Source: a virus
Direction: 5' to 3' (one strand)
DNA length: 23,809 bases
IMG/VR virus record: IMGVR_UViG_3300037189_027064
Span: 1-23,809 of that record
In this document: positions 1 through 16,032 of the stretch, one piece after another
Layout of the letters: each line of letters opens with the position of its first letter
How positions within the stretch are numbered: position 1 is the first letter of the stretch
Program-made: the position numbers and the translations under genes
Notes under the pieces: generated by a model
The model's input: only the letters and a program-made list of their open reading frames with translations
What the model was told of the DNA's origin: nothing
Database searches by the model: none

Positions 1-1
1 C

Positions 2-319
2 GATCTGCACAAAGATGCCTACGGTTTCCGCCCCAGCGAACTGTTCTGGGAAGAGTGGATCGGGGCTACGGATGCTGAGCGGCAGGCCATCTGGGACAGT
101 CTGGAGCGGGCCTTGGAGGTCAGCATGGAGATCGAGCGGGAGAACGAGCAGCGGGCCATTGACAGGTTCGAGGCCCTGGTCCGGGTGAACATTGACGCAG
201 GTGCAGAGGACCGTGAGACCGCACTGCGCTGGATCATGGATGCCAGCCGTGCCAATGGTGACTGGGAGTACCTGTGCTGGGAGTACAGTCTGCCATATCG
301 TTACTTTGAGCGGGGTTGA
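2..319 (+). CDS. Hypothetical phage protein, 5' end outside the window
   Basis: The reading frame is open from base 2 to a TGA at 317-319, giving about 105 visible residues. The true start lies upstream; the ATG at 113 is internal, because the coding sequence before it is equally protein-like (it opens DLHKDAYGFRP). The product is rich in Glu, Asp, Arg and Trp with no signal peptide or membrane segment, so it is probably cytoplasmic and helical. I recognise the DLHKDAYGFRP opening only as a recurrent feature of uncharacterised small phage proteins. The stop codon lies inside the -35 box of the promoter for the next gene. Confidence 0.7.
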   Translation, partial: DLHKDAYGFRPSELFWEEWIGATDAERQAIWDSLERALEVSMEIERENEQRAIDRFEALVRVNIDAGAEDRETALRWIMDASRANGDWEYLCWEYSLPYRYFERG

Positions 320-344
320 CAGGTAAATAGTGTGATAGTACAAT
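316..344 (+). promoter_or_regulatory. Sigma70-type early promoter P1
   Basis: TTGACA (316-321), 17-bp spacer, TACAAT (339-344). The -35 box contains the TGA stop of the upstream gene. It drives the secreted protein gene at 368. An ACACTTA string and AGGAG (355-359) follow, as at several other promoters in this module. Confidence 0.85.
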
Positions 345-367
345 GTACACACTTAGGAGAACACGCG

Positions 368-676
368 ATGAAGAAGATTGCACTTGCCCTTGCTCTTACT
401 GCTAGCCTAGTTGGCCATGCTCACGCTCACGGTGGCTATCGTGGTGCGCCAGTTTGGGGTGCTGTGGCAGCAGGTGCGATCCTCGGTGCTGCCATTGCCG
501 GTGCCCCAGTATATGCTGCTCCTCCCGTGTATGTTGCTCCACAACCAGTTTATCCTCAAGCAGTATATCCCCAAACTCAAGGTTGCCCATATGGCACCTA
601 CCCGTCCTATACTGCCGTGACTACCTATGATGCCTACGGAAGAGCATATAGCCAATATCAATTGACCTGCCGATAA
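368..676 (+). CDS. Small secreted Gly/Pro/Tyr-rich protein
   Basis: 102 aa. The ATG at 368 is chosen because AGGAG lies at 355-359 and the in-frame GTG at 332 lies upstream of the promoter's -10 box. The N-terminus is a classic Sec signal peptide (MKKIALALALTASL core) with a signal peptidase I site after AHA, about residue 20. The mature part has a Gly/Ala-rich hydrophobic stretch, then a low-complexity segment of repeated PVY/VAP/YPQ units, and two Cys near the C-terminus (one in CPYGTYP, one in LTCR), which could form a disulphide. It would be exported to the periplasm or outer surface. It resembles small bacterial exported proteins more than phage structural proteins, so host origin is possible. 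Function unknown. Confidence 0.8.
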   Translation: MKKIALALALTASLVGHAHAHGGYRGAPVWGAVAAGAILGAAIAGAPVYAAPPVYVAPQPVYPQAVYPQTQGCPYGTYPSYTAVTTYDAYGRAYSQYQLTCR

Positions 677-697
677 ACTATTAATTTTATACACAAT

Positions 698-774
698 ACC
701 ACCGTGGTCTAATTGAATAAGGCAACGCTCTTCTAAAGCGTACGATGTGAGTTTGAATCTCGCCGGTGGTACCA
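698..774 (+). tRNA. tRNA-Arg, anticodon UCU
   Basis: Full cloverleaf by hand. Acceptor 698-704 pairs with 764-770 (7 of 7). D stem 707-710/720-723; D loop AATTGAATA lacks the usual GG. Anticodon stem 725-729/737-741 is perfect, loop CTTCTAA with anticodon TCT at 732-734. Variable loop is 5 nt. T stem 747-751/759-763 with loop TTTGAAT. Discriminator A771 and CCA encoded at 772-774. It decodes AGA/AGG. A TTGACC at 662-667 with TTTATA at 686-691 (18-bp spacer) could be a weak promoter. Confidence 0.93.
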
Positions 775-788
775 ATTCTATTCATAGG

Positions 789-817
789 TATAAATACTTC
801 TAACAACCACTTAGAAG
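789..817 (+). promoter_or_regulatory. T4-type late promoter overlapping a 5' hairpin of the HNH gene
   Basis: TATAAATA (789-796) is the exact T4 late promoter core. A 7-bp inverted repeat follows directly: CTTCTAA (797-803), 7-nt loop, TTAGAAG (811-817). The right arm carries the only purine-rich Shine-Dalgarno candidate before the ATG at 827. With the core at -13 to -6, late transcription would start near 802, inside the left arm, so late mRNA could not form the hairpin while read-through mRNA could. Confidence 0.6.
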
Positions 818-826
818 TTAGAACTT

Positions 827-1513
827 ATGAATTATACCAAAATATACGATCGACTTATACTACGAGCACAATCTAGACTTCAAAGTAAAGGCGAGTATTA
901 TGAAAAACATCATATTATACCTCGATGCCTCAGTGGCACAGACGAGAAAGAAAATCTCGTCTCTCTTACCGCTAGAGAACATTTTATAGCACACCTTTGT
1001 CTTGTTAAGATTCATCCAGGTAACGGCTCATTAGTTAGAGCCGCTATGATGATGGCTTGTGAAAGCACTAATCAGAATCGCTCTGCTAATCGAGTATACG
1101 AATGGTTAAGAATAAAGCACTCAAAAGCAATGAGTCAATCACAGACCGGAAAAGGAAATAGCCAGTTCGGAACAAGTTGGATTTTTAACCAAACGACCAA
1201 TACTAATAAGAAAGTCCCAAATGACCAAATATCAAATTATTTGGAATCAGGATGGATTAAAGGAAGAGATGTAAAGTTCTATACCTGTGCGGTTTGTTTA
1301 AAATCTTTTAGTCATCATTTTAAAAAGAACACCTGTAGCAGTAAATGTTCTAAAATAGACAAACGACCGTTTCAAGTATTTGAAGGTAGAGAGCAAGAAT
1401 TCTTAGATCATTATCAAAATCTTAAAAGTATGAACAAGGCGTTACAGGCTATGGGATTCAAAGGAGCAATAAGTCACTACTACAAGTGGGCTAGATCAGT
1501 GCTTGACAAGTAG
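827..1513 (+). CDS. HNH homing-type endonuclease
   Basis: 228 aa. The N-terminal half holds an HNH nuclease core: EKHHIIPRC (about 26-34, catalytic HH), then ENLVSLTAREHFIAH (about 42-56) with the motif Asn and His, typical of phage free-standing HNH enzymes. Residues about 115-147 (GTSWIF ... SGWIKGR) resemble the short DNA-binding motifs between nuclease and C-terminal parts of such proteins. Four Cys (154, 157, 170, 174) form a probable zinc ribbon. The C-terminus (about 190-228) may be a helical DNA-binding tail. It would make a site-specific DNA break to spread its own gene. It is a single gene inserted between a tRNA and the early promoter of the next gene, and is less GC-rich than the small genes around it, which fits transfer. 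Confidence 0.88.
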   Translation: MNYTKIYDRLILRAQSRLQSKGEYYEKHHIIPRCLSGTDEKENLVSLTAREHFIAHLCLVKIHPGNGSLVRAAMMMACESTNQNRSANRVYEWLRIKHSKAMSQSQTGKGNSQFGTSWIFNQTTNTNKKVPNDQISNYLESGWIKGRDVKFYTCAVCLKSFSHHFKKNTCSSKCSKIDKRPFQVFEGREQEFLDHYQNLKSMNKALQAMGFKGAISHYYKWARSVLDK

Positions 1514-1531
1514 ATAATTTTTTGTTATAAT
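1503..1531 (+). promoter_or_regulatory. Sigma70-type early promoter P2
   Basis: TTGACA (1503-1508), 17-bp spacer, TATAAT (1526-1531): perfect consensus. The -35 box encodes the last residues (Leu-Asp) of the HNH protein, whose stop is at 1511-1513. Drives the gene at 1566. Confidence 0.9.
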
Positions 1532-1565
1532 CATCAAAACTTAAACTAGAAAGGAAATAAAGAAA

Positions 1566-1712
1566 GTGCCTAAAATTCCAACTCATCAGATCCTCGATGA
1601 CGAATGGGATGAGCCTAGAACCAAACAAGGCGTCAAACGCCTGCCCAAGCAGGACAAAGAATGGGAAGACCAACGCCGCGATGCTTGGCGTAAGAAGAAC
1701 CGACAAGACTAA
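1566..1712 (+). CDS. Small charged hypothetical protein
   Basis: 48 aa from a GTG start at 1566 with AAGGA at 1551-1555 upstream, and a perfect promoter before it. The sequence is almost all polar or charged (begins MPKIPTHQILDDEWDEP, ends RKKNRQD), acidic in the first third and strongly basic at the end. No Cys, no membrane segment. The basic tail could bind nucleic acid or a host protein, but I do not recognise the family. Short host-takeover proteins of this kind are typical of T4-like early regions. Coding status rests on the promoter, ribosome site and clean placement between neighbours. Confidence 0.65.
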   Translation: MPKIPTHQILDDEWDEPRTKQGVKRLPKQDKEWEDQRRDAWRKKNRQD

Positions 1713-1734
1713 CACACACTGAGAGAGTATACAC

Positions 1735-1881
1735 ATGAACAAACCAGGAACTCAACAACCATCCAGCACCGGCGGCACTATTACCTATACCAAGACCGGA
1801 CTGGTACACACAGCGGGCAAACATTTCAGTGGATCCACCGCCGAAGCAGATAAACCAAAAACTCCTAAAAAGAAAGGTTGA
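1735..1881 (+). CDS. Small Gly/Thr/Ser-rich hypothetical protein
   Basis: 48 aa from ATG 1735, preceded by GAGAG, stop TGA 1879-1881. The N-terminal part is rich in Gly, Thr, Ser and Gln (NKPGTQQPSSTGGT) and the C-terminus is Lys/Pro-rich (KPKTPKKKG). It looks disordered and has no recognisable fold. It follows the 1566 gene by 22 nt and is probably on the same transcript. Its stop codon lies in the -35 box of the next promoter. Function unknown. Confidence 0.6.
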   Translation: MNKPGTQQPSSTGGTITYTKTGLVHTAGKHFSGSTAEADKPKTPKKKG

Positions 1882-1906
1882 CTTTAGGCAGTCTTGATCG
1901 TATAAT
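1878..1906 (+). promoter_or_regulatory. Sigma70-type early promoter P3
   Basis: TTGACT (1878-1883), 17-bp spacer, TATAAT (1901-1906). The -35 contains the TGA of the preceding small gene. ACACTTA follows at 1913-1919, as at P1. Drives the AAA+ ATPase operon at 1943. Confidence 0.85.
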
Positions 1907-1942
1907 ACACAGACACTTAAATAATATTGAAAGGAAACAGAT

Positions 1943-2806
1943 ATGGCCCGTCCAGCAAAGAGTTCAGCAAGTGTAACCGTACTTGAGTTTGATACCGAAG
2001 CGATCAAACGCCGTGAACAAGAAGTGGCTCGTGAATCCGATGAGCAGATTCTTGAGCGACTGGCAGAACGGTTTGACATCCTAGACCACATGACCAAGGC
2101 TGTTAAGAGCGGTACCGTGCGTGCTATGATTGTATCAGGTCCCCCGGGTGTGGGCAAGAGTTTTGGTGTTGAGCGTGTGCTGGAGCGTGATGGTCTACTG
2201 GATCAGATCGCAGAACGCAAACCCAAATATGAAATTGTCAAGGGTGCTATGAGTGCCATTGGTCTATACAAGAAACTCTATGAGTTCAGTGCCAAAGGCA
2301 ATGTTGTGGTGTTTGATGACTGCGACAGTATTCTTATGGAAGACCTGGCCCTGAACATTCTCAAAGGTGCCCTGGACAGCAGCAAAAAGCGATTTATCAG
2401 TTGGAACACGGACAGCAGGATTCTGCGATCAGAAGGTATTCCAGATCGCTTTGAATTCAAGGGTGCTGCAATCTTTATTACCAATATCAAGTTTGAGCAT
2501 GTTCGATCAAAGAAACTGAAAGATCACTTGGATGCACTAGAAAGCCGCTGCCACTACATTGATCTGCAGATGGACACACAGCGAGAAAAGATTCTCCGTA
2601 TCAAACAGATTATCAGCACTGGGATGCTGGACGAATACGAGTTTGAAGACTGTGTTAAAGATGAATTGGTTGACTTTATCGATCAGAACAAAGATCAACT
2701 GCGTGAATTGAGTCTGCGTATGGTACTCAAGATTGCAGATCTACGTAAGAGTTTTCCAACCAAATGGCAGTCAATGGTACGCACAACCTGTATGCGGCGT
2801 GTATGA
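1943..2806 (+). CDS. AAA+ family ATPase
   Basis: 287 aa, ATG 1943 with GAAAGGAAA upstream. Walker A GPPGVGKS at 66-73; Walker B VVVFDD at 121-126; a sensor-1-like Asn in FITNIKF (about 178-184); Arg residues near 187-205 (HVRSKK, ESRC) may be arginine fingers. The N-terminal 50 residues are helical and charged. This is the layout of a single-domain AAA+ motor that hydrolyses ATP to remodel a protein or nucleic-acid partner. Many T4-like phages carry such an ATPase among their small early genes, with unknown partner. It overlaps the next, membrane-protein gene by 4 nt (ATGA), so the two are translationally coupled. Confidence 0.85.
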   Translation: MARPAKSSASVTVLEFDTEAIKRREQEVARESDEQILERLAERFDILDHMTKAVKSGTVRAMIVSGPPGVGKSFGVERVLERDGLLDQIAERKPKYEIVKGAMSAIGLYKKLYEFSAKGNVVVFDDCDSILMEDLALNILKGALDSSKKRFISWNTDSRILRSEGIPDRFEFKGAAIFITNIKFEHVRSKKLKDHLDALESRCHYIDLQMDTQREKILRIKQIISTGMLDEYEFEDCVKDELVDFIDQNKDQLRELSLRMVLKIADLRKSFPTKWQSMVRTTCMRRV

Positions 2807-3045
2807 ACCAGAGATATATTCAAACAGGTCTAGCCCTGATTCTTATGGTAGCGGTACTGTCCCTGTTGGGAGCCGACCTAGACAGCCCGCATTCCTGGGC
2901 TGTTTGGTCTATCCTAGCCCTAGCAGTGGTTCTAGAGTATTTGGCCTACATCCAAGGTATCAATCGGGGCATTGAAATGTACCTAACTCTTACACCAGAA
3001 CAACAGCAAGAAATCAATCGAATTATTCGGGACAACGAAGAATGA
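2803..3045 (+). CDS. Small two-helix membrane protein
   Basis: 80 aa. The ATG at 2803 is chosen because it overlaps the ATPase stop (ATGA); an earlier in-frame ATG at 2764 lies well inside the ATPase gene. Two hydrophobic segments (about residues 6-24 and 32-50) with a short polar turn predict an inner-membrane hairpin, followed by a charged cytoplasmic tail with a Glu/Gln-rich helix. Coupling to the AAA+ gene suggests, without proving, that the ATPase acts at the membrane. Next gene overlaps by 4 nt. Confidence 0.75.
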   Translation: MNQRYIQTGLALILMVAVLSLLGADLDSPHSWAVWSILALAVVLEYLAYIQGINRGIEMYLTLTPEQQQEINRIIRDNEE

Positions 3046-3251
3046 GTACCTGCGAGTGGAGAAGCGGCTGTGATCATCCAGCCCTAGAAGGCAAGAGTTA
3101 CTGTGAAGAACACGTTTGGTTAGTATATCAAAAAGGCAGTGCCCTGAGTAAACGCAAAAAGGATATCAGAGTGGCCAATCGTGTTCATGAACTAGAGAGT
3201 CTGATCAATGATGCGGTTGCTGAGTTGATAGACGAAGGATACTATATCTGA
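3042..3251 (+). CDS. Small putative zinc-binding protein
   Basis: 69 aa, ATG 3042 overlapping the previous stop. C4, C10, C21 and H24 (C-x5-C-x10-C-x2-H) form a probable zinc site in the N-terminal third. The rest is a Lys/Arg-rich then acidic helix ending DEGYYI. I recognise this only as a recurrent short phage protein with no established function; nucleic-acid or protein binding is possible. Third gene of the ATPase run. A 6-bp inverted repeat (CTGAGA 3248-3253, TCTCAG 3269-3274) overlaps its stop but lacks a T-run, so I do not call a terminator. Confidence 0.75.
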   Translation: MSTCEWRSGCDHPALEGKSYCEEHVWLVYQKGSALSKRKKDIRVANRVHELESLINDAVAELIDEGYYI

Positions 3252-3298
3252 GACAACTTCAATTCTTTTCTCAGCTGTGCCTGTATTTGGCTAAATTT

Positions 3299-3397
3299 AT
3301 GTTGATCATTATGATTGTGATACAGATAGTCAAATGGGCAGGTCGCGAGCAAGAACCAAGAATAGAGGAAGATACCTATGAACGACAATCGAATTGA
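3299..3397 (+). CDS. Possible 32-aa hydrophobic-N-terminus peptide
   Basis: ATG 3299 to TGA 3395-3397: a very hydrophobic start (MLIIMIVIQIVKW), then a charged tail. It fills the gap between two genes and overlaps the next start by 20 nt. No good ribosome site is visible and a second ATG (3311) is possible, so this is weakly supported. Confidence 0.3.
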   Translation: MLIIMIVIQIVKWAGREQEPRIEEDTYERQSN

Positions 3398-3680
3398 ACC
3401 TGTGCTAACAGCCACCCAGACCATGCCCAGTATACTGGATACCTTTTCAGATCGTGAACGAGAGTTGCTCAAACAGAACAAGCGGCTAAGAGAATTAGTA
3501 GTCGCAGTGGCTGATCGACTACGACCCGGATGGCGGACCCAGGGATTTGGTTTCGAATCCAGTTGGATGCTGGAAGACATTGACAGCCTAGATCGGGACC
3601 GTGTTAATCTGGAAAGAGGTATGGGCAATCTACTGGAAGTGATCGCACACTACGAAAGGAAGATAAACGATGCCCCGTGA
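3378..3680 (+). CDS. Hypothetical protein, coiled-coil-like
   Basis: 100 aa, ATG 3378 with GAGGAAG at 3365-3371. Residues about 24-48 (RERELLKQNKRLRELV) have heptad-like hydrophobic spacing and probably form a coiled coil. The central part has a Gly/Trp/Phe-rich turn (GWRTQGFGFESSW) and the C-terminus returns to helix. No cofactor or catalytic motif seen. Cytoplasmic. Overlaps the following gene by 11 nt. Confidence 0.7.
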   Translation: MNDNRIEPVLTATQTMPSILDTFSDRERELLKQNKRLRELVVAVADRLRPGWRTQGFGFESSWMLEDIDSLDRDRVNLERGMGNLLEVIAHYERKINDAP

Positions 3681-4089
3681 AACTAAAACCCAGAAACTGG
3701 AAAAGAAACGTCAGCAAGAGTTTGAGCAGTGGAATCAGTTTTGGCTAACCTATCCAGATCGTCTAGCACTCCTAATCTATGGTTATGGGCAAGAGTTTGC
3801 TGAACAGAGTTATACTGTGAGCAAATTTGAATCCGATGAGGGTGTATGGTTTCATCTCAGTGCAGGCTCTGATATCTGGGGTCTACCCCTTAATCTACAG
3901 GCCGAAACAGATCGTATTCTAGCCGGAGAACCCATTAACACAGATCTAATCTACCAATTGGAGAGTGCAGAGAGTGCGCTATGGCGTGCTCAACAGTCTC
4001 GCGATGAAGAACAGCGACTGAAGGAAGTTCGTGCTCAAGCATTGGCCAAACTGTCAGAAGAAGAACGAGCTCTGCTGGGTTTAGAATGA
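3670..4089 (+). CDS. Hypothetical protein
   Basis: 139 aa, ATG 3670 with an AGGAAG-type site (about 3657-3662) just upstream inside the previous gene. The first 20 residues are Lys/Arg/Glu/Gln-rich, the middle is hydrophobic and aromatic (WLTYPDRLALLIYGYG; FESDEGVWFHLSAG) and looks folded, and the last 40 residues are a charged, Glu/Arg/Ala-rich helix. No known motif, signal peptide or membrane segment. Overlaps the next gene by 4 nt (ATGA). Confidence 0.75.
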   Translation: MPRETKTQKLEKKRQQEFEQWNQFWLTYPDRLALLIYGYGQEFAEQSYTVSKFESDEGVWFHLSAGSDIWGLPLNLQAETDRILAGEPINTDLIYQLESAESALWRAQQSRDEEQRLKEVRAQALAKLSEEERALLGLE

Positions 4090-4283
4090 AGAACACCTTC
4101 TTGATCTTAGTACTGGGGTCTATGTTGGTTATTGCGATCACCATATTCAACATCTGGGCCAATCGTGGTCTATACCGTCAATGTCTAGCACAGGGCGGAG
4201 TATACCATCAGAGTGCCGAGGCGTCAAGAAGCCGTTGTACATTTGCCACACAGCCTAAACCGGTTGACAAGACCGGCAGGTAA
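4086..4283 (+). CDS. Small single-pass membrane protein
   Basis: 65 aa, ATG 4086 in an ATGA overlap. Residues 4-23 form one hydrophobic membrane segment (FLILVLGSMLVIAITIF) followed by a soluble domain with two Cys (in YRQCLAQ and SRCTF) that could pair if it faces the periplasm. Lacks a clear signal peptidase site, so it is probably anchored. The next promoter's -35 box lies inside its last codons. Confidence 0.7.
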   Translation: MKNTFLILVLGSMLVIAITIFNIWANRGLYRQCLAQGGVYHQSAEASRSRCTFATQPKPVDKTGR

Positions 4284-4292
4284 TCATATAAT
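4264..4292 (+). promoter_or_regulatory. Sigma70-type early promoter P4
   Basis: TTGACA (4264-4269), 17-bp spacer, TATAAT (4287-4292): perfect consensus. The -35 lies in the last codons of the upstream gene, whose TAA (4281-4283) is in the spacer. Drives the 49-aa gene at 4319. Confidence 0.9.
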
Positions 4293-4318
4293 ACAAGAAC
4301 AGTACACAAGAGGCTGCT

Positions 4319-4468
4319 ATGAAATACATTCTGATCACAAGCCAAGGCCGCGTGATGACCTTTTACTTCAAAAGTATGGCCGAAACTTACCAAAAAACCC
4401 TCGGTGGAGTTGTTGTACCAGAACAACAGATCGAACACATCGAACTGGTTGACATGCCCCAGGAATAG
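4319..4468 (+). CDS. Small hypothetical protein
   Basis: 49 aa from ATG 4319, with AGAGG at 4309-4313 and its own perfect promoter. Composition is that of a small folded alpha/beta protein (MKYILITSQGRVMTFYF opening, acidic end VDMPQE). No Cys and no membrane segment. No family recognised. The last codons overlap the -35 of the following promoter. Confidence 0.7.
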   Translation: MKYILITSQGRVMTFYFKSMAETYQKTLGGVVVPEQQIEHIELVDMPQE

Positions 4469-4477
4469 CAGTACAAT
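4449..4477 (+). promoter_or_regulatory. Sigma70-type early promoter P5
   Basis: TTGACA (4449-4454), 17-bp spacer, TACAAT (4472-4477). The -35 encodes part of the C-terminus of the 49-aa gene; the stop of that gene (4466-4468) lies in the spacer. ACACTAGAGAG follows before the gene at 4504. Confidence 0.85.
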
Positions 4478-4503
4478 ACACACATAGACACTAGAGAGCG
4501 AAT

Positions 4504-4743
4504 ATGACAAACGAACTTCTTTCAGCAGATCAAAGACTTTCCATTTGGGGCGATCGCCTCAAGTATCACGATTGGTATTACGATTACAGTGACGACCATC
4601 GTGTGTGGTCAAGAGGAGACCAAGATAACAGGTGGATCCAAAGCGAGAAGGCGTACCTAAACAGTATGGGACTTGAAGTAGAGGTACAGGCTCTTTGGGA
4701 TCAGTATTGCCCGTGGAGCAGGACCAACGGTCAACCCCAGTGA
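4504..4743 (+). CDS. Small Trp/Tyr/Asp-rich hypothetical protein
   Basis: 79 aa, ATG 4504 with GAGAG about 8 nt upstream and promoter P5. Notable for seven Trp and many Tyr/Asp (KYHDWYYDYSDDHRVW). No membrane segment or catalytic motif. Acidic aromatic small proteins of this sort often bind and inhibit host proteins, but that is inference. First gene of a run of four closely spaced genes (4504-5309). Confidence 0.7.
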   Translation: MTNELLSADQRLSIWGDRLKYHDWYYDYSDDHRVWSRGDQDNRWIQSEKAYLNSMGLEVEVQALWDQYCPWSRTNGQPQ

Positions 4744-4744
4744 A

Positions 4745-4960
4745 ATGGGCACAGGAGTGAGTTATACCGTATACCAGTTTACTGAAGTTCAGCTCAAGAT
4801 CATACACGATTTCATGGAACTGAGCCCGTGGGGTCCTCGTGACGCTTACTGCTGGTTCAAGGGTCTCAAGAGCACTGAGTCAGTTCGCACTGGTGAGGTA
4901 GAAGACTTTGCCTGTGCGTTCTACACACAATACAATCGAACTTACGGAAGGACCTATTAA
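4745..4960 (+). CDS. Small hypothetical protein
   Basis: 71 aa from ATG 4745, one base after the previous stop. The ribosome-site candidate is weak, so it may depend on translational coupling. Contains YQFTEVQLKIIHDFM (probable helix) and a Trp/Tyr/Cys-rich centre (SPWGPRDAYCWFKGL). No known motif. Two bases separate its stop from the next start. Confidence 0.7.
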   Translation: MGTGVSYTVYQFTEVQLKIIHDFMELSPWGPRDAYCWFKGLKSTESVRTGEVEDFACAFYTQYNRTYGRTY

Positions 4961-4962
4961 CT

Positions 4963-5157
4963 ATGAACAAACAGTGGTGCGATCCCCCAGAGGGTTGGCG
5001 TTATGGTTTTCCCAAGATCTGGGATCCTAGCCAAGAACCTAATTACACAGAGTGGTTGATCAAAGAAGGCTATCCTAAACAGGAGATTGATCGACTGGGC
5101 AATAACTTCTGGAGCCGACATTGGGCAGTAACACCCGAAGAGGAGGACGATGCATGA
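4963..5157 (+). CDS. Small hypothetical protein
   Basis: 64 aa, ATG 4963. The upstream GGAAGG (4947-4952) is a plausible ribosome site. Trp-rich, with PPEGWRYGFPKIWDP near the start and an acidic end (PEEEDDA). The middle (TEWLIKEGYPKQEIDRLG) looks like a small helix-turn-helix-sized helical pair, but I cannot claim DNA binding. Overlaps the next gene by 4 nt; its last codons carry the AGGAGG of that gene. Confidence 0.7.
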   Translation: MNKQWCDPPEGWRYGFPKIWDPSQEPNYTEWLIKEGYPKQEIDRLGNNFWSRHWAVTPEEEDDA

Positions 5158-5309
5158 GTTATGTCCTAGTCCTAATTCTAACTGCCACAGGCACTATTAC
5201 AACCATAGAGGGCTTTGGTTCGGAAACTGCTTGCCAATGGGCAGCCCGCCGGTTCCAAGATCAGGCCCGCCCTACTCAGGCCCAGGCCCTGTGCGTGACC
5301 AAAAGTTGA
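5154..5309 (+). CDS. Small exported or membrane-anchored protein
   Basis: 51 aa. ATG 5154 chosen over an earlier in-frame start at 5121 because it sits in an ATGA overlap with a perfect AGGAGG at 5141-5146. The N-terminus (MSYVLVLILTATGTITTI) is hydrophobic and could be a signal or membrane anchor. The remainder has two Cys (ETACQW, ALCVT), compatible with a disulphide in the periplasm. Function unknown. Confidence 0.65.
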   Translation: MSYVLVLILTATGTITTIEGFGSETACQWAARRFQDQARPTQAQALCVTKS

Positions 5310-5518
5310 CCACTGAACGAGCCTGTGCTCTGTGCGGAGCACGGGGCCACTCACCCTCAAATTGTCCTTGGAGAAAGATCATGATTTGGCAAATCCGCTA
5401 TCTATACCGGGGCCGCCCTGGATACCTAGAACTGACTGCACCCACTAGATCTCAGGCCCTGCGCCAGGCAAGATTACGAGTCAAAACCATAGTCAGTTAT
5501 CGGCAGATTAGGGGTTGA
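5306..5518 (+). CDS. Zinc-knuckle (CCHC) small protein
   Basis: 70 aa if read from the TTG at 5306, which overlaps the previous stop. Residues 7-20 are an exact CCHC zinc knuckle (C-x2-C-x4-H-x4-C; CALCGARGHSPSNC), a fold known to bind single-stranded nucleic acid, followed by PWR. An in-frame ATG at 5381 has its own GGAG and would make a 45-aa product lacking the knuckle (MIWQIRYLYRGRPGY, basic, Arg-rich). Either one fused gene or nested products are possible; the open frame and perfect motif argue that the knuckle is translated. The stop lies in the -35 of promoter P6. Confidence 0.6.
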   Translation: MTTERACALCGARGHSPSNCPWRKIMIWQIRYLYRGRPGYLELTAPTRSQALRQARLRVKTIVSYRQIRG

Positions 5519-5543
5519 CAACACACTCACAGACTGCTATAAT
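5515..5543 (+). promoter_or_regulatory. Sigma70-type early promoter P6
   Basis: TTGACA (5515-5520), 17-bp spacer, TATAAT (5538-5543): perfect consensus, with the upstream TGA (5516-5518) inside the -35. Drives the acidic protein gene at 5573 and probably the run to 6330. Confidence 0.9.
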
Positions 5544-5572
5544 ACTTGAACACTAACGCAATGGAGCACGAG

Positions 5573-5752
5573 ATGAACGAAGATTTTGAGTGGGATGACT
5601 ATGCTGCTACCGTGGACCACGACTCGGCCTCCGGTGATCGCGACGATGCCACGGATTACTACCCGGATGAATACAGTGACTGCGAATCGGGCAACGAGGA
5701 CAGTTACTTGGATTCGGCCTACGAAGATCGTTATGATCTGGGCGACTACTGA
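5573..5752 (+). CDS. Highly acidic Asp/Glu/Tyr-rich small protein
   Basis: 59 aa from ATG 5573, chosen because GGAG (5563-5566) is well spaced; in-frame TTG 5546 and ATG 5561 are too close to the promoter start. Roughly half of the residues are Asp, Glu or Tyr (ending YEDRYDLGDY), almost no Lys, one Cys. This charge pattern resembles DNA-mimic phage inhibitors, which block host DNA-binding proteins, but only the composition supports that idea. Confidence 0.7.
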   Translation: MNEDFEWDDYAATVDHDSASGDRDDATDYYPDEYSDCESGNEDSYLDSAYEDRYDLGDY

Positions 5753-5762
5753 GGTGCTGACC

Positions 5763-5942
5763 GTGAAACGAATTTCCGGAATTAGCCTGATCCTAGCCGC
5801 CTTGATGACCCTGACCATACTGGGCTCAGGAGTTGAAGCGGTACCCGAAGATGCCAGTTGGTTGTGCTGGGCAGGTATTTGGTTCACATCCGTGCTGGCT
5901 ATCCTAGTGGGCCTGCTGGGCATTCAACGGCTAGAATCATGA
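5763..5942 (+). CDS. Small two-helix membrane protein
   Basis: 59 aa from GTG 5763 with GAGGT at 5751-5755. Hydrophobic segments at about 5-22 and 36-54 predict two inner-membrane helices joined by a short acidic loop (VPEDASW). The first could instead be a signal peptide. No catalytic motif. Overlaps the next tiny membrane gene by 4 nt, so these two are likely co-produced. Confidence 0.65.
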   Translation: MKRISGISLILAALMTLTILGSGVEAVPEDASWLCWAGIWFTSVLAILVGLLGIQRLES

Positions 5943-6025
5943 AAGTAGGCGTGTTCCTGATCCTAGTCCTTGTGCTGTTCCTGCTGAACTTGGCCCTACT
6001 CTACATAGCCATCGACCGTCTGTGA
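5939..6025 (+). CDS. 28-aa single-pass membrane peptide
   Basis: ATG 5939 in ATGA overlap with the previous gene, stop TGA 6023-6025 overlapping the next GTG. Nearly the whole peptide is one hydrophobic helix (VFLILVLVLFLLNLALLYIA) with a charged end (DRL). Overlap coupling on both sides is the main evidence that it is real. Function unknown; it may modulate its membrane neighbour. Confidence 0.6.
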   Translation: MKVGVFLILVLVLFLLNLALLYIAIDRL

Positions 6026-6330
6026 GCACACAACAACAGATCACTGCTTTTATATACGACCGCAAGGGCCGTGTGCTCTCAGTGGGTCAGAACAGCTATA
6101 TCAAGACCCACCCACTACAAGCAGAGCATGCTCGCAGAGTGGGAGAACCGCACAGGCAGTTTCTACACGCAGAGATCTCCGCGATCACACGCTGTAGGGA
6201 CTTGAGCAGAGCCTATAGAATGCAGGTTATCAGATATAACAGGCAGGGTGAACCAGTACTGGCCCGACCTTGTGCAGTATGCGAGTCAGCCATCCGAGCC
6301 ACTCCTATTCAGAAGATTGAGCACACCTGA
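6022..6330 (+). CDS. Short cytidine/dCMP deaminase-fold protein
   Basis: 102 aa from GTG 6022 (GTGA overlap). It has the zinc-dependent deaminase signature: H49-A50-E51 (HAEISAI), then P83-C84-x2-C87 (RPCAVCESAI). The N-terminus (AFIYDRKGRVLSVGQNSY) matches the first strands of the fold. This family removes an amino group from cytosine or adenine in nucleosides, nucleotides or RNA. It is shorter than T4 dCMP deaminase (Cd) and lacks that enzyme's extra zinc region, so the substrate cannot be named. The C-terminus ends soon after the second motif, so the last helix may be truncated. Last gene of the early run; a role in nucleotide supply or base modification is likely. Confidence 0.75.
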   Translation: MSTQQQITAFIYDRKGRVLSVGQNSYIKTHPLQAEHARRVGEPHRQFLHAEISAITRCRDLSRAYRMQVIRYNRQGEPVLARPCAVCESAIRATPIQKIEHT

Positions 6331-6336
6331 GGGGCT

Positions 6337-6421
6337 CTGGGGCGTAAATTTAAACACGCTAGCTATAACTTGCTAGCCGCTTGCCCTAAATGCCCCAGTG
6401 TTAGATAGAATCACCAGGGGC
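6337..6421 (+). ncRNA. Nested hairpin with a competing alternative hairpin
   Basis: Outer arms CTGGGGC (6337-6343) and GCCCCAG (6392-6398) enclose inner arms GCTAGC (6358-6363 and 6372-6377) with an 8-nt loop; both share the centre 6367.5 with equal 14-nt flanks. GCCCC (6392-6396) can instead pair with GGGGC (6417-6421), with GTG/CAC (6398-6400/6412-6414) extending it. Whether this acts as RNA or DNA is unknown. Confidence 0.4.
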
Positions 6422-6493
6422 CGAGATCTCCAAACCCTAAAAAATTTGCGCGCCCAAAATTTAGCACTGTGTATAGTGACCGGGCCCTGAGTG

Positions 6494-6552
6494 CAGGGAA
6501 GTCTAAAAACCCTTGCTCTAAATAGATTTCCCTGATTAAAAAATTTTTTTAC
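6494..6552 (+). terminator. Possible terminator-like hairpin with A/T run
   Basis: CAGGGAA (6494-6500) pairs with TTCCCTG (6528-6534) across a 27-nt loop, followed by a TTAAAAAATTTTTTTA palindrome to 6552. The long loop makes it a poor intrinsic terminator, but it is at the end of the early gene run. Confidence 0.35.
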
Positions 6553-6863
6553 AGAATTTTTACTCTGCTGCTAAGACCGGTGTGAACCACAACCACGTGG
6601 ACAACCCTTTATTTCCCATAGTACTAGATAAGGACCTGTATGTGCCACACTCATCAGCAGCCACATTAGACTCATAGAGTTTGATGAACCGCACACTATG
6701 CTGTTTAGATTGGGATTAATTATACTGACCGCAAATCCCATCAAAAACAAGGGTGCCGGTGCGTATTTGACCAGTTGTTTTGCGTAGTAAAATAACTGTA
6801 AGCGGCCCCATTTCATATACAAGTTATTTACACTTACTGGGATTTTATATTCATTGTTATACT

Positions 6864-6871
6864 AGTAAATA
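6864..6871 (+). promoter_or_regulatory. T4-type late promoter variant
   Basis: AGTAAATA, ending 7 nt before the ATG at 6879. With late-promoter spacing the start would fall at about 6877, leaving a 2-nt leader. Confidence 0.45.
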
Positions 6872-6878
6872 GTCAATC

Positions 6879-7142
6879 ATGCAGGCCTTTTGGGATCATG
6901 TGCCCCTTTATCCTTATCTAGCTTCGGCTCCTTGGCCTTTAGTAGAGGTCAATGGTGTTATATACTGGTCTTCCACTGTGCACGTTGTAGAGCAGTGGTT
7001 GGAAACTGCTGTGGGGCCGCACTACTGTGAGTGGTCTTGGCAGTTGAGCCATTCTCCCAATCCCTATGTTTGCACAGTCAGTTTTAAGTCTGCCAGTGCC
7101 AGCACACTGTTTTTACTCAAGTTTCATTACTCGCAGAGATAA
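6879..7142 (+). CDS. Hypothetical protein
   Basis: 87 aa, ATG 6879. Aromatic and rich in Trp, His and Tyr (FWDHVPLYPYLASAPWPLVEVNG, partly), with a segment WSSTVHVVEQWLETAVGPHYCEW that looks like a folded alpha/beta core and a beta-rich end. No signal peptide or membrane helix. There is no Shine-Dalgarno sequence, but AGTAAATA lies just upstream, suggesting a leaderless late transcript. A single gene flanked by non-coding DNA on the left. Family not recognised. Confidence 0.6.
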   Translation: MQAFWDHVPLYPYLASAPWPLVEVNGVIYWSSTVHVVEQWLETAVGPHYCEWSWQLSHSPNPYVCTVSFKSASASTLFLLKFHYSQR

Positions 7143-7145
7143 ATA
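7138..7145 (+). promoter_or_regulatory. T4-type late promoter
   Basis: GATAAATA overlapping the stop of the previous gene (TAA 7140-7142). Predicted start near 7151 gives a leader of about 39 nt with the AAGGAGG at 7177-7183 before ATG 7190. Confidence 0.5.
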
Positions 7146-7189
7146 TTTTTCTAATCACATTTATGTGTATATAAAAAAGGAGGCCTAAT

Positions 7190-7423
7190 ATGTCCGAGCA
7201 AAACAAATCACTAGTAGAAGCCACAGCAGAAGCTGTAGAGGGTGCAGTCACAGGCAAGAAGTTTTGGATGAGCAAGACCTTTTGGGTCAATGTACTAGCC
7301 GGTGCAGCCATGCTAGCTCAAATGCGAGTAGGCTTTGTGGTCAGCCCAGAGCTACAGGCCATGGGTTTAACTGTGGTCAATCTAATGCTACGCAAGATCA
7401 CCAAAGAGCCAGTTACCTGGTAA
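7190..7423 (+). CDS. Small membrane protein, possibly holin-like
   Basis: 77 aa, ATG 7190 with a perfect AAGGAGG (7177-7183). A polar, acidic N-terminus is followed by KKFWMSKTFWVNVLAGAAML, one membrane helix, then a second moderately hydrophobic segment (GFVVSPELQAMGLTVVNLML) and a basic end. Short proteins of this layout (SKTFWVN... helix ... LRKITKEPV) occur beside lysis or late genes in phages, and a holin or other membrane role is possible. No lysozyme gene is in this window, so lysis is not supported by context. A strong terminator follows directly. Confidence 0.65.
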   Translation: MSEQNKSLVEATAEAVEGAVTGKKFWMSKTFWVNVLAGAAMLAQMRVGFVVSPELQAMGLTVVNLMLRKITKEPVTW

Positions 7424-7452
7424 TATATACCAATATATATACTGTGTAAGTG

Positions 7453-7489
7453 TGTGTGCATGTTGTCATTGACATGCACACATTTTTTT
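7453..7489 (+). terminator. Strong intrinsic terminator
   Basis: An 11-bp perfect stem (7453-7463 with 7472-7482), 8-nt loop, then seven T (7483-7489). It ends transcription of the 7190 gene. Confidence 0.92.
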
Positions 7490-7496
7490 GTATACT
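7469..7496 (+). promoter_or_regulatory. Sigma70-like promoter nested in the terminator
   Basis: TTGACA (7469-7474) lies in the loop and right arm of the terminator hairpin; TATACT (7491-7496) follows after 16 bp. Start near 7503 would place the AAGGAGGT (7505-7512) at the very 5' end of the mRNA for the gene at 7523. Confidence 0.6.
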
Positions 7497-7522
7497 GTAT
7501 CTGCAAGGAGGTAAGCCTATAT

Positions 7523-8074
7523 ATGGCCAATACATTTTATCTTGACATGGACGGTGTAGTAGCAGATTGGAGTAAGGGTGTTTCCCAACTGTTGGGACAT
7601 GAAATCTCCACCGATCCCACTGCAAGAATGTCCGATTCTGATTGGGCTCGAGTACTGGAGCATCCCAGACTATTTCGTGATCTACCTTTAATGCAGGGTG
7701 CGGATCAATTGGTTGATCTAGCTCGTGCCTATCGTGATCAATTGGGTTGGGAGTTATTGTTTCTCACTGCTATTCCGCATCTCAATGATGTACCGTGGGC
7801 ATTTTGGGACAAGATGTTGTGGGCCCAGCGGTATTGGCCCGATATTCCAGTTCACTTTGGGCCCCATAGTTATGATAAACAGGTGCATTGTACACAGGGG
7901 GATATACTGGTAGATGATCGACCCGATAACTGTGAGCAGTGGCAGTCTGCTGGGGGATTGGCCTTTCAAGTTACGGGATCTTTAGCATCAGTTAGGCCGT
8001 TATTGGAAGAAGATTTTAATCGTAGACACAGTTTACGCAATCAGAATCTTATAATTCTGGATCTTGATCAGTAG
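7523..8074 (+). CDS. HAD-family 5'(3')-deoxyribonucleotidase-like phosphatase
   Basis: 183 aa. ATG 7523 is set by AAGGAGGT at 7505-7512; an upstream in-frame extension to 7454 would run through the terminator. HAD motifs: I, D8-M-D10-G (YLDMDGVVADW); II, T82 in FLTAIP; III, K119; IV, GDILVDDRPDN with D131/D132. The layout and the DMDGVVADW start match the 5'(3')-deoxyribonucleotidase (NT5C-type) family, which removes phosphate from deoxynucleoside monophosphates. A role in nucleotide salvage during infection fits. It is not the GmhB phosphatase of the heptose pathway, by motif context. Cytoplasmic. A terminator follows at 8127. Confidence 0.8.
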   Translation: MANTFYLDMDGVVADWSKGVSQLLGHEISTDPTARMSDSDWARVLEHPRLFRDLPLMQGADQLVDLARAYRDQLGWELLFLTAIPHLNDVPWAFWDKMLWAQRYWPDIPVHFGPHSYDKQVHCTQGDILVDDRPDNCEQWQSAGGLAFQVTGSLASVRPLLEEDFNRRHSLRNQNLIILDLDQ

Positions 8075-8639: not shown

Positions 8640-9317
8640 CTAGATGCTCAAATCTTGATCATGTGCTTGATCTAGAAAATTAACCAGTTTTTCAACAACT
8701 TTTGCGTTTCTTAGGGTTTTATATACTAGATTAGCTACCCCATATTCACCGGTCTGTTTTAGGCCTAATTTGCGATATTTTCTTAATAAATCTAGAAGTT
8801 TTTTGGCACTTTCGACGTCTTTTGACCTAATTATGAACAGAATTATTTTACGCCACACTCTATACATTCTGTCAATTTCTGCAGTATCTATTTCGATAGA
8901 TTCTGCCGGATTTGGTTCCTTAATCCACTGATTATCTTTTAGACTCCAGCTAGCACCTTTGGCTGGTAATTTTTTATCTTCAACATACAGCTCTACGTCA
9001 ATTCCTCTAATCTTAATATTAGTTTTGGTATTATACAATAATCTTTTAGTGTCGAATAATTCTTCTAGTTCTGTATCGCATTTGATCTTAGCATAATCCA
9101 CGATTAGATGCAGATCTAGATCGCTATGTTTATTATAAAAATACGAAGCCTGACTGCCAGTGATAACAATGTCTTCAACTTCAAAAGGTATTTCTACAAA
9201 CTGTTTAAAGTCAGCAGCGGTCTTTATCAGAGTGGCGCGCACTTCCGGCCTCAGTGTACCGTTTCGCCAAAGCAAGGGATTTAGATCAGATTTCGGAGTT
9301 AACTCAAGTATTTCCAT
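8640..9317 (-). CDS. Nucleotidyltransferase-fold protein
   Basis: 225 aa, ATG 9317. Pol beta-type nucleotidyltransferase core: GSQAS (54-58), then DLDLH (66-70) with two metal-binding Asp, and a third acidic strand DVELYVED (107-114). These are the defining motifs of the superfamily, which transfers an NMP to a protein, RNA or small molecule; the acceptor is unknown. The C-terminal half is helical and basic. Related phage proteins occur in T4-like genomes of aquatic hosts without known role. Starts divergently from the AlgH-like gene with a late-type promoter GATAAATA ending 7 nt before its ATG, and no Shine-Dalgarno. Confidence 0.8.
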   Translation of the reverse strand: MEILELTPKSDLNPLLWRNGTLRPEVRATLIKTAADFKQFVEIPFEVEDIVITGSQASYFYNKHSDLDLHLIVDYAKIKCDTELEELFDTKRLLYNTKTNIKIRGIDVELYVEDKKLPAKGASWSLKDNQWIKEPNPAESIEIDTAEIDRMYRVWRKIILFIIRSKDVESAKKLLDLLRKYRKLGLKQTGEYGVANLVYKTLRNAKVVEKLVNFLDQAHDQDLSI

Positions 9318-13585: not shown

Positions 13586-14143
13586 CTTTTCACATATAAG
13601 ATTCATTTGAACTACAATTGCAGATGCATATGCAATAGCGTGACTACGTTTGAAATAATATTCATCTGATACAGGTTTAAGCCAAATTTCTTTCAGTACA
13701 TCATCCCAATTCTTACCGATTAGGTATCTTTTAGCTGGTCGAATCAATGCCAAAACTGCCGCAAGTTGTTCTATACTTTGTGGCTTCATTTTTCTAAGAA
13801 TACTTCCCTGTCCATTTACGTGAAACAAAAGATCAGTAAACTCATCTTGTTCTAGAAGATCCCAAAGAGGTTCGGTATTAAGTAATTTAATCAAATGTTC
13901 TTCATCAGTTACTTCTCGGTAAATGCCAACATTTAAAAAATCTATTTTGAAATATCCTCTTGCCTCAGCCTCTTTATATTCGAAACTAGCAGTGCTGGTA
14001 ATAGGATTGACTGGAATTTTTTGAAAGTAAACTCCGGTCTTGTGTTTTTTAAAAGAGTCCTTGTCTTTGATTGTAGCAGGAATATGCTCTAAGATTTCTA
14101 GGATTTTTGATCTATCTGCAAAATCAATATCAATATCAGTCAT
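13544..14143 (-). CDS. Miniature DNA polymerase III alpha (DnaE)-like protein
   Basis: 199 aa, ATG 14143 (ATGA overlap with the kinase gene). It reads like a condensed DnaE palm/fingers: DIDIDF (3-8) matches the PDxDxDF catalytic loop with two Asp; KKHKTGVYF (32-40) matches the RHxAGVV region; YFKIDFLNV (64-72), with D68, matches the KFDFLGL loop that holds the third catalytic Asp; LIRPAKR (133-139) corresponds to the ALxRPGP loop; FKRSHAIAYA (164-173) matches FNKSHAxAYA. Full DnaE is about 1,160 aa, so PHP, most of the fingers and the C-terminal domains are missing. Polymerase activity is not proven; it could be a regulatory or primer-handling protein. It ends the heptose-enzyme run. Confidence 0.65.
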   Translation of the reverse strand: MTDIDIDFADRSKILEILEHIPATIKDKDSFKKHKTGVYFQKIPVNPITSTASFEYKEAEARGYFKIDFLNVGIYREVTDEEHLIKLLNTEPLWDLLEQDEFTDLLFHVNGQGSILRKMKPQSIEQLAAVLALIRPAKRYLIGKNWDDVLKEIWLKPVSDEYYFKRSHAIAYASAIVVQMNLICEKLVTGILDSSNQLN

Positions 14144-14922
14144 TCTAAAACAATAGCAGATAGATCATTTTGTGTCAATGAGTAAACCCCACGATGCCGT
14201 ACCGTGATAGAAGCACATTGATTGGCAAAATTAATCGCACGATCCATACATTGGGATTTGAGAAATTCGAAGGTCAATGCTGCTAAGAATGTATCTCCTG
14301 CGCCGCATACATCAACTACTTCAGTAGGACACGGAGAGTACGATTTGCCTCGATATTGTGCACCTCGGCTGCCTAATGTAACAATAAGATTATTACATTT
14401 TGAAATACTTTGTCGATATTCTTGCTCGTTAATTTTTACATAACACCCTTCAAATCGAGCAAGATCTCTTTTTTTAGTATCAATAAAAATAGGACCTGGA
14501 TAGCAAGTTCGTATTGATTCGACATTTTGGTAGGTCATAAAACCTTTATCGTAATCAGAAATAACTATGGCATCATATTTCTCAAAAGTTGAACCTATTG
14601 GGCCTAAAATTAACGGATCGCTTTGATAATCTTCGTCTACCCGAACAATATGTTGTTTGCTACGTTCGTCTATATATCTTTTTTTGATACTTTGAGTTTG
14701 ACTGGTTATGAACTCAACTTCGCATCCAAAAGATTCGAGATTGTCTTTGACATTTGCTGCCATTCCGGGTTTAGACTCGCGCCTAAGGATTTTAAGAACG
14801 GGTACAGGTGCCTCCGGATTTAATCTATCACAGGTTCCATAGTAATATTCGTCTAGACAACTATCGCCTATCAATAATACTTTGAATTTTTTGTGTGGTT
14901 GAATATTTTTCAAGTCTGCCAT
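14140..14922 (-). CDS. hldE: D-glycero-beta-D-manno-heptose-7-phosphate kinase (HldE N-domain type)
   Basis: 260 aa, PfkB/ribokinase fold. The N-terminus VLLIGDSCLDEYYYG (15-29) and NPEAPVPVLK (35-44) match HldE domain I closely, PGMAANV (52-58) fits the sugar-binding GGAANV loop, and DVCGAGDTFLAAL (204-216) is the ATP/anion-hole motif with catalytic D210. The reaction is phosphorylation of heptose 7-phosphate to the 1,7-bisphosphate, for ADP-heptose synthesis. About 50 residues shorter than the bacterial domain, with a shortened central region. Encoded separately from the adenylyltransferase, with which it overlaps by 62 nt. ATGA overlap with the next gene. Confidence 0.85.
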   Translation of the reverse strand: MADLKNIQPHKKFKVLLIGDSCLDEYYYGTCDRLNPEAPVPVLKILRRESKPGMAANVKDNLESFGCEVEFITSQTQSIKKRYIDERSKQHIVRVDEDYQSDPLILGPIGSTFEKYDAIVISDYDKGFMTYQNVESIRTCYPGPIFIDTKKRDLARFEGCYVKINEQEYRQSISKCNNLIVTLGSRGAQYRGKSYSPCPTEVVDVCGAGDTFLAALTFEFLKSQCMDRAINFANQCASITVRHRGVYSLTQNDLSAIVLE

Positions 14923-15265
14923 AAAATTCTATTCGTTTACAATATTCAGATCCTAAAATCGGTTTTCCTTGATAATCACTGCCCTTGATCATTAGATCAG
15001 GAGAATAATTTTTTATAAGATCAACTAATTCCTGATCCGAATCAAATACATCAACTCTATCTACTGATTTTAGAGAAGCTAAAAAATAGCATCTTTCATA
15101 TTCTGTGTTAACCGGACGAGTCGGACCTTTTAATTCTCGTATTCGCCGATCGCTGTCAGTCAACACATAAACAAAGGAATTAGGCCAGGATTTTGCGTAT
15201 TCCAATAATTTTAAATGTCCAAGATGCAGTATGTCAAATGAACCATTAACTACAATTTTCATCAT
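14861..15265 (-). CDS. hldE: Heptose-1-phosphate adenylyltransferase (HldE C-domain type)
   Basis: 134 aa. Rossmann-type nucleotidyltransferase: VNGSFDILHLGHLKLL (6-21), with the HxGH motif at 14-17; TDSDRRIRELKGPTRPVN (36-53), and DLMIKGSDYQ with EKYSTTQKI near the C-terminus, matching HldE domain II (VNSD...RLKG..RPVN, LLVKGGDY, CSTT). It joins AMP from ATP to D-glycero-beta-D-manno-heptose 1-phosphate, giving ADP-heptose. ATG 15265 overlaps the epimerase stop by 4 nt. The gene order transferase then kinase is the reverse of the domain order in fused bacterial HldE. Confidence 0.88.
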   Translation of the reverse strand: MMKIVVNGSFDILHLGHLKLLEYAKSWPNSFVYVLTDSDRRIRELKGPTRPVNTEYERCYFLASLKSVDRVDVFDSDQELVDLIKNYSPDLMIKGSDYQGKPILGSEYCKRIEFYGRLEKYSTTQKIQSIIDRR

Positions 15266-16032
15266 ATGCTATAGTGTTTTTTTAATTTAGCAGTATCGGC
15301 ACAGGTATATGTTTGATATTGATCTTTTACATTATCGGGCATAGGTATATACTCAATTACTGCATTATATTCTTTGGCAATATCTTCGGCAACCTTTTGA
15401 AATGATCTCGGTTGACCTGTACCCACATTCCATATCCCCGATTCTTTAACGTTAAAAAATTTCTTATGTACATCGACCACAGTTTCTACAGGTACAAAAT
15501 CTCTAAGGTATTGATCAGAATTTTCAAATAGTTTGATTACACCAGTTTCCTGTGCCTGTTTTTTAAATTTATGATATGGACTGGCCTGATCTCCTTTGTG
15601 GTCTTCATAGGGGCCGTATACATTAAAATATCTAAATCCCTGTATATAGATTCCTTTCCAGGCACGACTACGAACATATCTTTCAAACAAATATTTGCTC
15701 CAGGCATAGGGACTTTGCGGACTCACTGGAGCGTTTTCAGAAAAATTTTGCGTTAGTCCGTATACACCGGCACTGCTTGCATATTGCAAATTGACTTGCC
15801 ATAGCCAGCATTCGTTGAGTAACCAACAACTAAAATCGTAATTTTGTTGCATGATCATCTCAATGTTTTTTTCAGTGGTAGAACTGTTAGCACCTAAGTG
15901 AATAACCCAATCTAACCCTCGAACATTTGGCAGATTATCTCCCCATTCGTGAAATGTTAAATCATGGTCTGCTAGGTCCTTGGTCATATTTTGACCAATA
16001 AATCCTCGATAGCCCGTAATTAAAATTTTCAT
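15262..16032 (-). CDS. hldD: ADP-L-glycero-D-manno-heptose 6-epimerase-like (HldD type)
   Basis: 256 aa, extended SDR. NAD(P) site GYRGFIG (7-13); catalytic Ser region YASSAGVYG (84-92); catalytic Y109-x3-K113 (YAWSK); then GFRYFNVYGP (132-141), RDFVPVETVVDV, WNVGTGQPRSFQKVA, and YIPMPDNVKDQYQTYTCAD near the end, following HldD order and sequence closely. Converts the D-glycero to the L-glycero epimer of ADP-heptose, used for the LPS inner core. A little shorter than bacterial HldD (about 310 aa), mainly in the N-terminal half. ATGA overlaps on both sides. Confidence 0.87.
   Translation of the reverse strand: MKILITGYRGFIGQNMTKDLADHDLTFHEWGDNLPNVRGLDWVIHLGANSSTTEKNIEMIMQQNYDFSCWLLNECWLWQVNLQYASSAGVYGLTQNFSENAPVSPQSPYAWSKYLFERYVRSRAWKGIYIQGFRYFNVYGPYEDHKGDQASPYHKFKKQAQETGVIKLFENSDQYLRDFVPVETVVDVHKKFFNVKESGIWNVGTGQPRSFQKVAEDIAKEYNAVIEYIPMPDNVKDQYQTYTCADTAKLKKHYSI

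Follow-up and report, generated by a model that had tools for sequence, protein, structure and literature searches.

A late promoter within a hairpin over the ribosome-binding site probably confines a phage HNH endonuclease gene to late expression

The HNH homing endonuclease gene studied here, which belongs to a large T4-like phage, is very probably expressed only late, through a late promoter placed within a hairpin that hides its ribosome-binding site. The promoter motif, the hairpin, its loss from the shorter RNA and its covariation in relatives were all found computationally. In the mechanism that we propose, early RNA from a promoter at 316-344 would read through a tRNA gene into the HNH gene. 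This RNA would hold both sides of the hairpin, the Shine-Dalgarno sequence and the AUG would be paired, and no enzyme would be made, so that early translation of the HNH gene would be repressed. Once the late sigma factor appears, transcription from TATAAATA would start at about position 802. The resulting late RNA would lack 780-801, neither stem would form and the HNH gene would be translated.

The window (the whole stretch of DNA analysed) is a virus record of 23.8 kb. A stretch of 3112 bp in it is identical to the end of record G001 (67.7 kb), and the two together cover about 88 kb of the same phage. Genes for gp32, UvsX, a UvsW-like helicase and a gp41-type protein are present in the window, and its UvsX was best matched by jumbo phages such as Phosso, Atu_ph07, GAP32 and CBB (about 68%). 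Megablast of window positions 1-8000 against cultured phages gave no match. The HNH gene lies directly behind a tRNA-Arg(UCU) gene, and this tRNA and a small ORF are what separates it from the strong sigma-70 type promoter at 316-344 (Table 1). A terminator scan of the + strand over positions 1-2100 showed no terminator-like site. The upstream promoter is the likely source of an early read-through RNA into the tRNA and the HNH gene, and since this RNA would run on from a sigma-70 promoter without a terminator, a lock on the HNH gene would be needed. The second, perfect sigma-70 promoter overlaps the HNH stop codon and probably serves the downstream genes; promoters of downstream genes are likewise embedded within endonuclease genes in T4 (PMC2988022). 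Elsewhere in the window, a minus-strand ORF cluster among the replication genes (14140-16385) appeared by eye to be sugar-nucleotide-like (epimerase-, nucleotidyltransferase-, sugar-kinase- and cupin-like).

Table 1. Features predicted around the HNH gene, with window positions
Feature	Position	Strand	Basis
Sigma-70 type (host/early) promoter, TTGACA-17-TACAAT	316..344	+	11/12 consensus matches
tRNA-Arg(UCU) gene	698..774	+	ARAGORN; Rfam RF00005, 54.6 bits; anticodon loop 32-38 = CTTCTAA
Outer stem, left strand	780..789	+	RNA fold of 775-845; pairs with 823-832
Putative T4-type late promoter octamer TATAAATA (-13 to -6)	789..796	+	Sequence; sense-strand enrichment of NATAAATA
Inner stem, left strand	796..803	+	Fold; CTTCTAA 797-803 = anticodon loop of adjacent tRNA-Arg
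Late transcription start, inferred +1 (A)	802	+	Octamer start + 13; gene-start distance peak
Inner stem, right strand	811..818	+	Fold; weak Shine-Dalgarno AGAAG (813-817) inside
Outer stem, right strand	823..832	+	Fold; AUG (827-829) inside
HNH homing endonuclease, Mob/MobE type, 228 aa	827..1513	+	phrog_655 homing endonuclease, E 1.5e-48
Perfect sigma-70 promoter, TTGACA-17-TATAAT	1503..1531	+	12/12 matches; overlaps HNH stop codon

A preliminary description of this DNA had reported an exact TATAAATA followed directly by an inverted repeat with arms at 797-803 (CTTCTAA) and 811-817 (TTAGAAG), ahead of an ATG at 827. The octamer, both arms and the ATG were all found at these positions, and the inverted repeat is real. 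However, the full hairpin is larger than had been described, and its outer stem had been missed. The inner stem of 8 bp is nested in this outer stem of 10 bp, and both the weak Shine-Dalgarno sequence (9 nt from the AUG) and the AUG are buried in the full hairpin. The 71-nt RNA 775-845 folded at -15.4 kcal/mol (z -3.89), and 2 of 200 shuffles folded as well. Computed folding showed RNA starting at 802 to be nearly unstructured. The mean computed probability of being unpaired was 0.03 for 811-817 and 0.00 for the AUG in RNA starting at 698 or 775, 0.25 and 0.61 respectively in RNA starting at 802, and 0.61 and 0.81 in RNA starting at 800. An exact TATAAATA with a perfect 7-nt inverted repeat within 0-2 nt was seen in 3 of 400 first-order shuffled windows. 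Counted alone, with at most 1 mismatch, the octamer showed no enrichment over the window (52 sites vs 49 expected), and the exact match therefore carries little weight without its position. The hairpin begins 5 nt past the 3' end of the tRNA, so that 3' processing of the tRNA would leave it whole.

To place the octamer among the promoters of related phages, we compared the window phage with two relatives, G002 (33.6 kb) and G003 (385 kb, with overlapping ends). Upstream of ORFs, NATAAATA occurred in sense versus antisense orientation 17 vs 2 times in the window phage, 12 vs 1 times in G002 and 66 vs 18 times in G003, and octamer enrichment was seen only upstream of genes and in the sense orientation. 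The NATAAATA sites of G003 precede tail tube, baseplate and head genes (virion genes were identified in G003, not in the window phage). G003 also encodes a gp55-like late sigma factor (phrog_12791, E 7e-76); gp55 was not found in G001, the 67.7 kb record of the window phage, which is a fragment. In the jumbo relative CBB, a gp55-like sigma factor and an ATAAATA late promoter, the latter also seen in GAP32, have been proposed (PMC5259590).

Octamer-to-start-codon distances in the window phage, G002 and G003 were bimodal, peaking sharply at 12-13 nt and broadly at 24-40 nt, and A was enriched at octamer offset 13 (67/108). In T4, roughly one helical turn separates the octamer from the transcription start downstream of it (PMC2988020). 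With the octamer at -13 to -6, genes of the 12-13 nt class have their AUG at +1, and this separate class of genes therefore places the +1 at 802 independently of the hairpin. The distance peak and the A at offset 13 thus lend computational support to the earlier proposal that transcription starts near 802 and removes the left arm, and we infer that the octamer at 789-796 is used as a promoter with its +1 at 802.

Of 108 promoter-start pairs from G001 plus the window, G002 and G003 (loci L169-L196), 22 had a distance of 12-13 nt from octamer to start codon; an example in the window is the minus-strand ORF 8640-9317, where GATAAATAATCGAAT is followed directly by the ATG. The same spacing was found at 25 of the 68 promoter-bearing HNH loci described below. 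These leaderless HNH genes showed no excess of pairing with their own arms. About 40% of the promoter-bearing HNH members appear, from this spacing, to use leaderless late mRNAs instead, which is possibly new.

Relatives of the HNH gene were examined for the same arrangement. G002 encodes an HNH protein (locus L003) that is 59% identical and G003 one that is 47% identical, each behind the same tRNA-Arg(UCU). Both leaders carry CATAAATA or GATAAATA and the hairpin arms ACTTCTA/TAGAAGT; L003 was found by protein search with no arms imposed, and G003 by a pattern that fixed the arms. The computed change in accessibility at L003 was modest, with its AGGAG going from 0.49 to 0.70 unpaired, and the L003 AUG does not open. 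In phage phiA8-29, a homologue with 41% identity follows closely on tRNA-Arg(UCU), and its leader contained neither promoter nor hairpin.

We then collected 144 distinct HNH loci by protein-profile searches in which the leader was not constrained. ATAAATA was present within 70 nt upstream at 68 of the 144 loci (15 in the antisense control), lying within 20 nt of the start codon at 27 of these and further away at 41. Within the set of 41 leadered loci, pairing was computed between the promoter-side stretch of each locus and the leader of that locus, and likewise with the leaders of the others. The own-arm pairing sum was -459.9 vs -277.1 for permuted pairs (sd 16.1; z -11.4, 0/10,000), and 20 of the 41 loci were individually at p <= 0.05. 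The excess remained after similar leaders were removed (z -9.7 with 33 loci, z -7.3 with 14 loci) and when tRNA-linked loci were left out (z -7.3, 32 loci). Pairing was kept though the arms differ between loci, for example at L204, L208, L221 and L299. HNH loci without ATAAATA showed a small pairing excess too (z -3.2). When every late-promoter gene with a leader in the three phages was included, the excess was weaker (-442 vs -373, sd 17.5, 0/5000), and the design is therefore not confined to endonucleases.

The preliminary description had named beforehand, as a refuting outcome, that the pairing be absent from related genomes. The pairing was kept in L003, in G003 and in dozens of HNH relatives, mostly with different arms, and this covariation shows that selection acts on the pairing and not on the sequence. 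An exact-pattern scan that returned 81 contigs was dropped as evidence of covariation, because the arms were fixed in the pattern; most of these contigs represent one leader, ahead of the gene start MSKILANQ... described below.

Many of the HNH relatives lie in or beside tRNA genes, in a set whose frequency is biased by having been gathered partly with tRNA-linked queries (A2, A3). At several loci a tRNA-like 5' fragment precedes the HNH gene, and the 3' end of that gene overlaps an intact tRNA, by 9 nt (Gln), 25 nt (Lys), 48 nt (Ala), 20 nt (Trp) and 23 nt (Arg). At L204, L206, L208, L213, L215, L216, L219 and L233 the HNH gene seems to be inserted in a tRNA gene, with the tRNA overlapping its last codons. 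Direct repeats of tRNA sequence flank some loci (L216, 52 nt, 81%; L233, 43 nt, 74%). Two further observations concern single loci. The G003 tRNA-Arg(UCU) upstream of the HNH gene (end of L112, minus strand) received no ARAGORN call and seems to have an extended variable region and no D arm. At L279, a contig filed as bacterial (Mollicutes MAG contig PWOH01000079.1) and possibly a phage contig, a full-length HNH relative (33%) lies between tRNA-Pro and tRNA-Asn.

The tRNA link bears on what the repeat does. In the window, the left arm CTTCTAA and the anticodon loop of the neighbouring tRNA-Arg are identical. Over 33 locus-tRNA pairs, leaders matched the anticodon arm of their own neighbour tRNA above permuted pairs (match sum 201 vs 158.8, sd 6.7, 0/2000), with 7 exact anticodon-loop matches vs 1.2 permuted. 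Both results, and the precedent of I-TevI (PMC2988022), would fit a repeat that is mainly a DNA operator, at which the enzyme binds a copy of its homing site beside the promoter and represses itself, RNA pairing being secondary. However, the left arms with which right arms pair vary widely within the family, something that an operator alone would not require, and the 32 loci without a tRNA link still pair. At part of the loci, moreover, the anticodon match is a mere remnant of the interrupted tRNA. We consider it unlikely that the repeat is mainly an operator.

The same remnants could suggest that the late promoter is genuine and the hairpin a by-product of insertion into inverted or tRNA-derived sequence, without any control of translation. 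Part of the match between leaders and anticodon arms is tRNA remnant, and the arms at L204, L212 and L208 come from tRNA halves. However, the end of the right arm repeatedly falls at the AUG, arms that vary between loci still pair after strict thinning (the z of -9.7 above), and a related mechanism has been demonstrated in both Aeh1 mobE and T4 gene e (PMC3014915), so that a by-product seems somewhat less likely still. It is very improbable that the hairpin ends transcription or marks the tRNA-Arg transcript for 3' processing, beside a TATAAATA that is A+T-rich by chance: its place just past the tRNA 3' end would suit this, but no T run follows it, the pairing reaches over the AUG, NATAAATA shows its enrichment upstream of genes, relatives without a nearby tRNA have the same layout, and the empty + strand scan led us to reject the terminator reading.

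Control by a late promoter inside a translation-blocking hairpin thus remains the preferred reading, and the tRNA sequence in the arms may add a second role to it. In the window, L003, L211 and L221 the copied anticodon sequence is separate from any tRNA remnant. On the strength of these matches, the anticodon arm would be the homing target, and the promoter region may double as an operator, as it does for I-TevI. We suggest tentatively, as a possibility that we hold to be rather doubtful, that the HNH family consists of elements that home to tRNA genes and turn their own target into a regulatory lock. The left arm, carrying anticodon-arm sequence of the invaded tRNA (borne or remnant), would be both operator and RNA lock; several members would rebuild the tRNA at the gene end, where it overlaps the last codons, and sister genes would be late-only by way of leaderless mRNAs with the AUG as first nucleotide. 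The tRNA association of the HNH family, together with a left arm that often matches the neighbouring anticodon loop, is possibly new.

The gene encodes an HNH homing endonuclease of Mob/MobE type, free-standing and predicted to be active. Its phrog_655 profile is also matched by Aeh1 MobE, T4 MobB and T4 MobC, and the window protein is 41% identical to Aeh1 MobE over 108 aa, in a homologous N-terminal HNH domain. The motif E..HH..P.C....N..L.....EH..AH is conserved, and the HNH residues (region of H28, H29, N43, H52 and H56) were invariant in a 19-sequence alignment. The protein matched Pfam HNH only below the cut-off and gave only weak HNH matches to PDB by sequence; a fold search of its predicted structure against PDB returned nothing below E 0.5. 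The enzyme would be active and home to a tRNA-Arg allele.

Control by a late promoter and a hairpin over the ribosome-binding site is already known, including on an HNH enzyme. It has been reported for MobE, SegB and I-TevI/II/III (PMC2988022, PMC3014915; reviews), and an HNH enzyme controlled in this way is therefore not itself new. The preliminary description had seen novelty in an HNH instead of a GIY-YIG enzyme, as convergent or shared regulation; this did not hold, since the arrangement was already described for the HNH enzymes MobE (Aeh1) and I-TevIII and for tRNA-region SegB, and MobE is a homologue of the window protein.

MobE of Aeromonas phage Aeh1 is likewise a free-standing HNH enzyme of the same PHROG family with a homologous N-terminal domain, and its gene has a late promoter on the loop side of a hairpin and a repeat that ends at the ATG (read from the sequence; PMC2988022). 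In contrast to the window gene, mobE lies inside nrdA and has another C-terminal part, an octamer variant (TCTAAATA) and unrelated arm sequences; a variant of the late-promoter consensus has been noted for Aeh1 (PMC2988020). SegB of T4/T6 shares the map: a tRNA gene, a short leader with CATAAATA and a hairpin over the ribosome-binding site and AUG, the endonuclease and the next tRNA. T4 segB, scanned in the same way, showed tRNA-Ile, CATAAATA and a -19.4 kcal/mol hairpin over the ribosome-binding site and AUG. However, SegB is a GIY-YIG enzyme, of another catalytic family than HNH; a tRNA-linked role has been reported for it (PMC13096335). The td intron enzyme I-TevI of T4, likened here by description and not by sequence, also has a late promoter inside a hairpin with read-through RNA hiding the ribosome-binding site, and its promoter overlaps an operator that resembles the homing site (PMC2988022), but it is an intron-encoded GIY-YIG enzyme. 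T4 gene e (lysozyme) and other late genes have a late promoter in the 5' strand of a hairpin that hides the ribosome-binding site (PMC3014915), although gene e is not a mobile element.

The results carry a control scheme known from a handful of T4-type genes over to a broad family of HNH enzymes that are free-standing and come from uncultured phages. Why phage endonucleases are restricted to late times can thereby be tested in many natural replicates. The connection of the hairpin arm with the anticodon loop and the insertion site, and the alternative of leaderless mRNAs, bear on the way in which selfish genes settle in the tRNA clusters of phages; such clusters play a part when phages escape from immunity that cuts tRNAs (PMC13096335).

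Two minor observations concern other genes. At L088-L167, apparently from marine T4-like phages, the leader is conserved (ATAAATACTTCTAG...CTAGAAGT); it stands right before a repeated gene start (MSKILANQ...) and reads as a late promoter with a hairpin on a non-endonuclease gene. Several late-promoter ORFs of G001 and G003 share an N-terminal motif, with the starts MRAREFTS, MRAREFLSE, MKLREILLE, MRLSEFLIE and MFLREIFLSE, which may resemble the capsid-targeting sequence of T4 internal head proteins.
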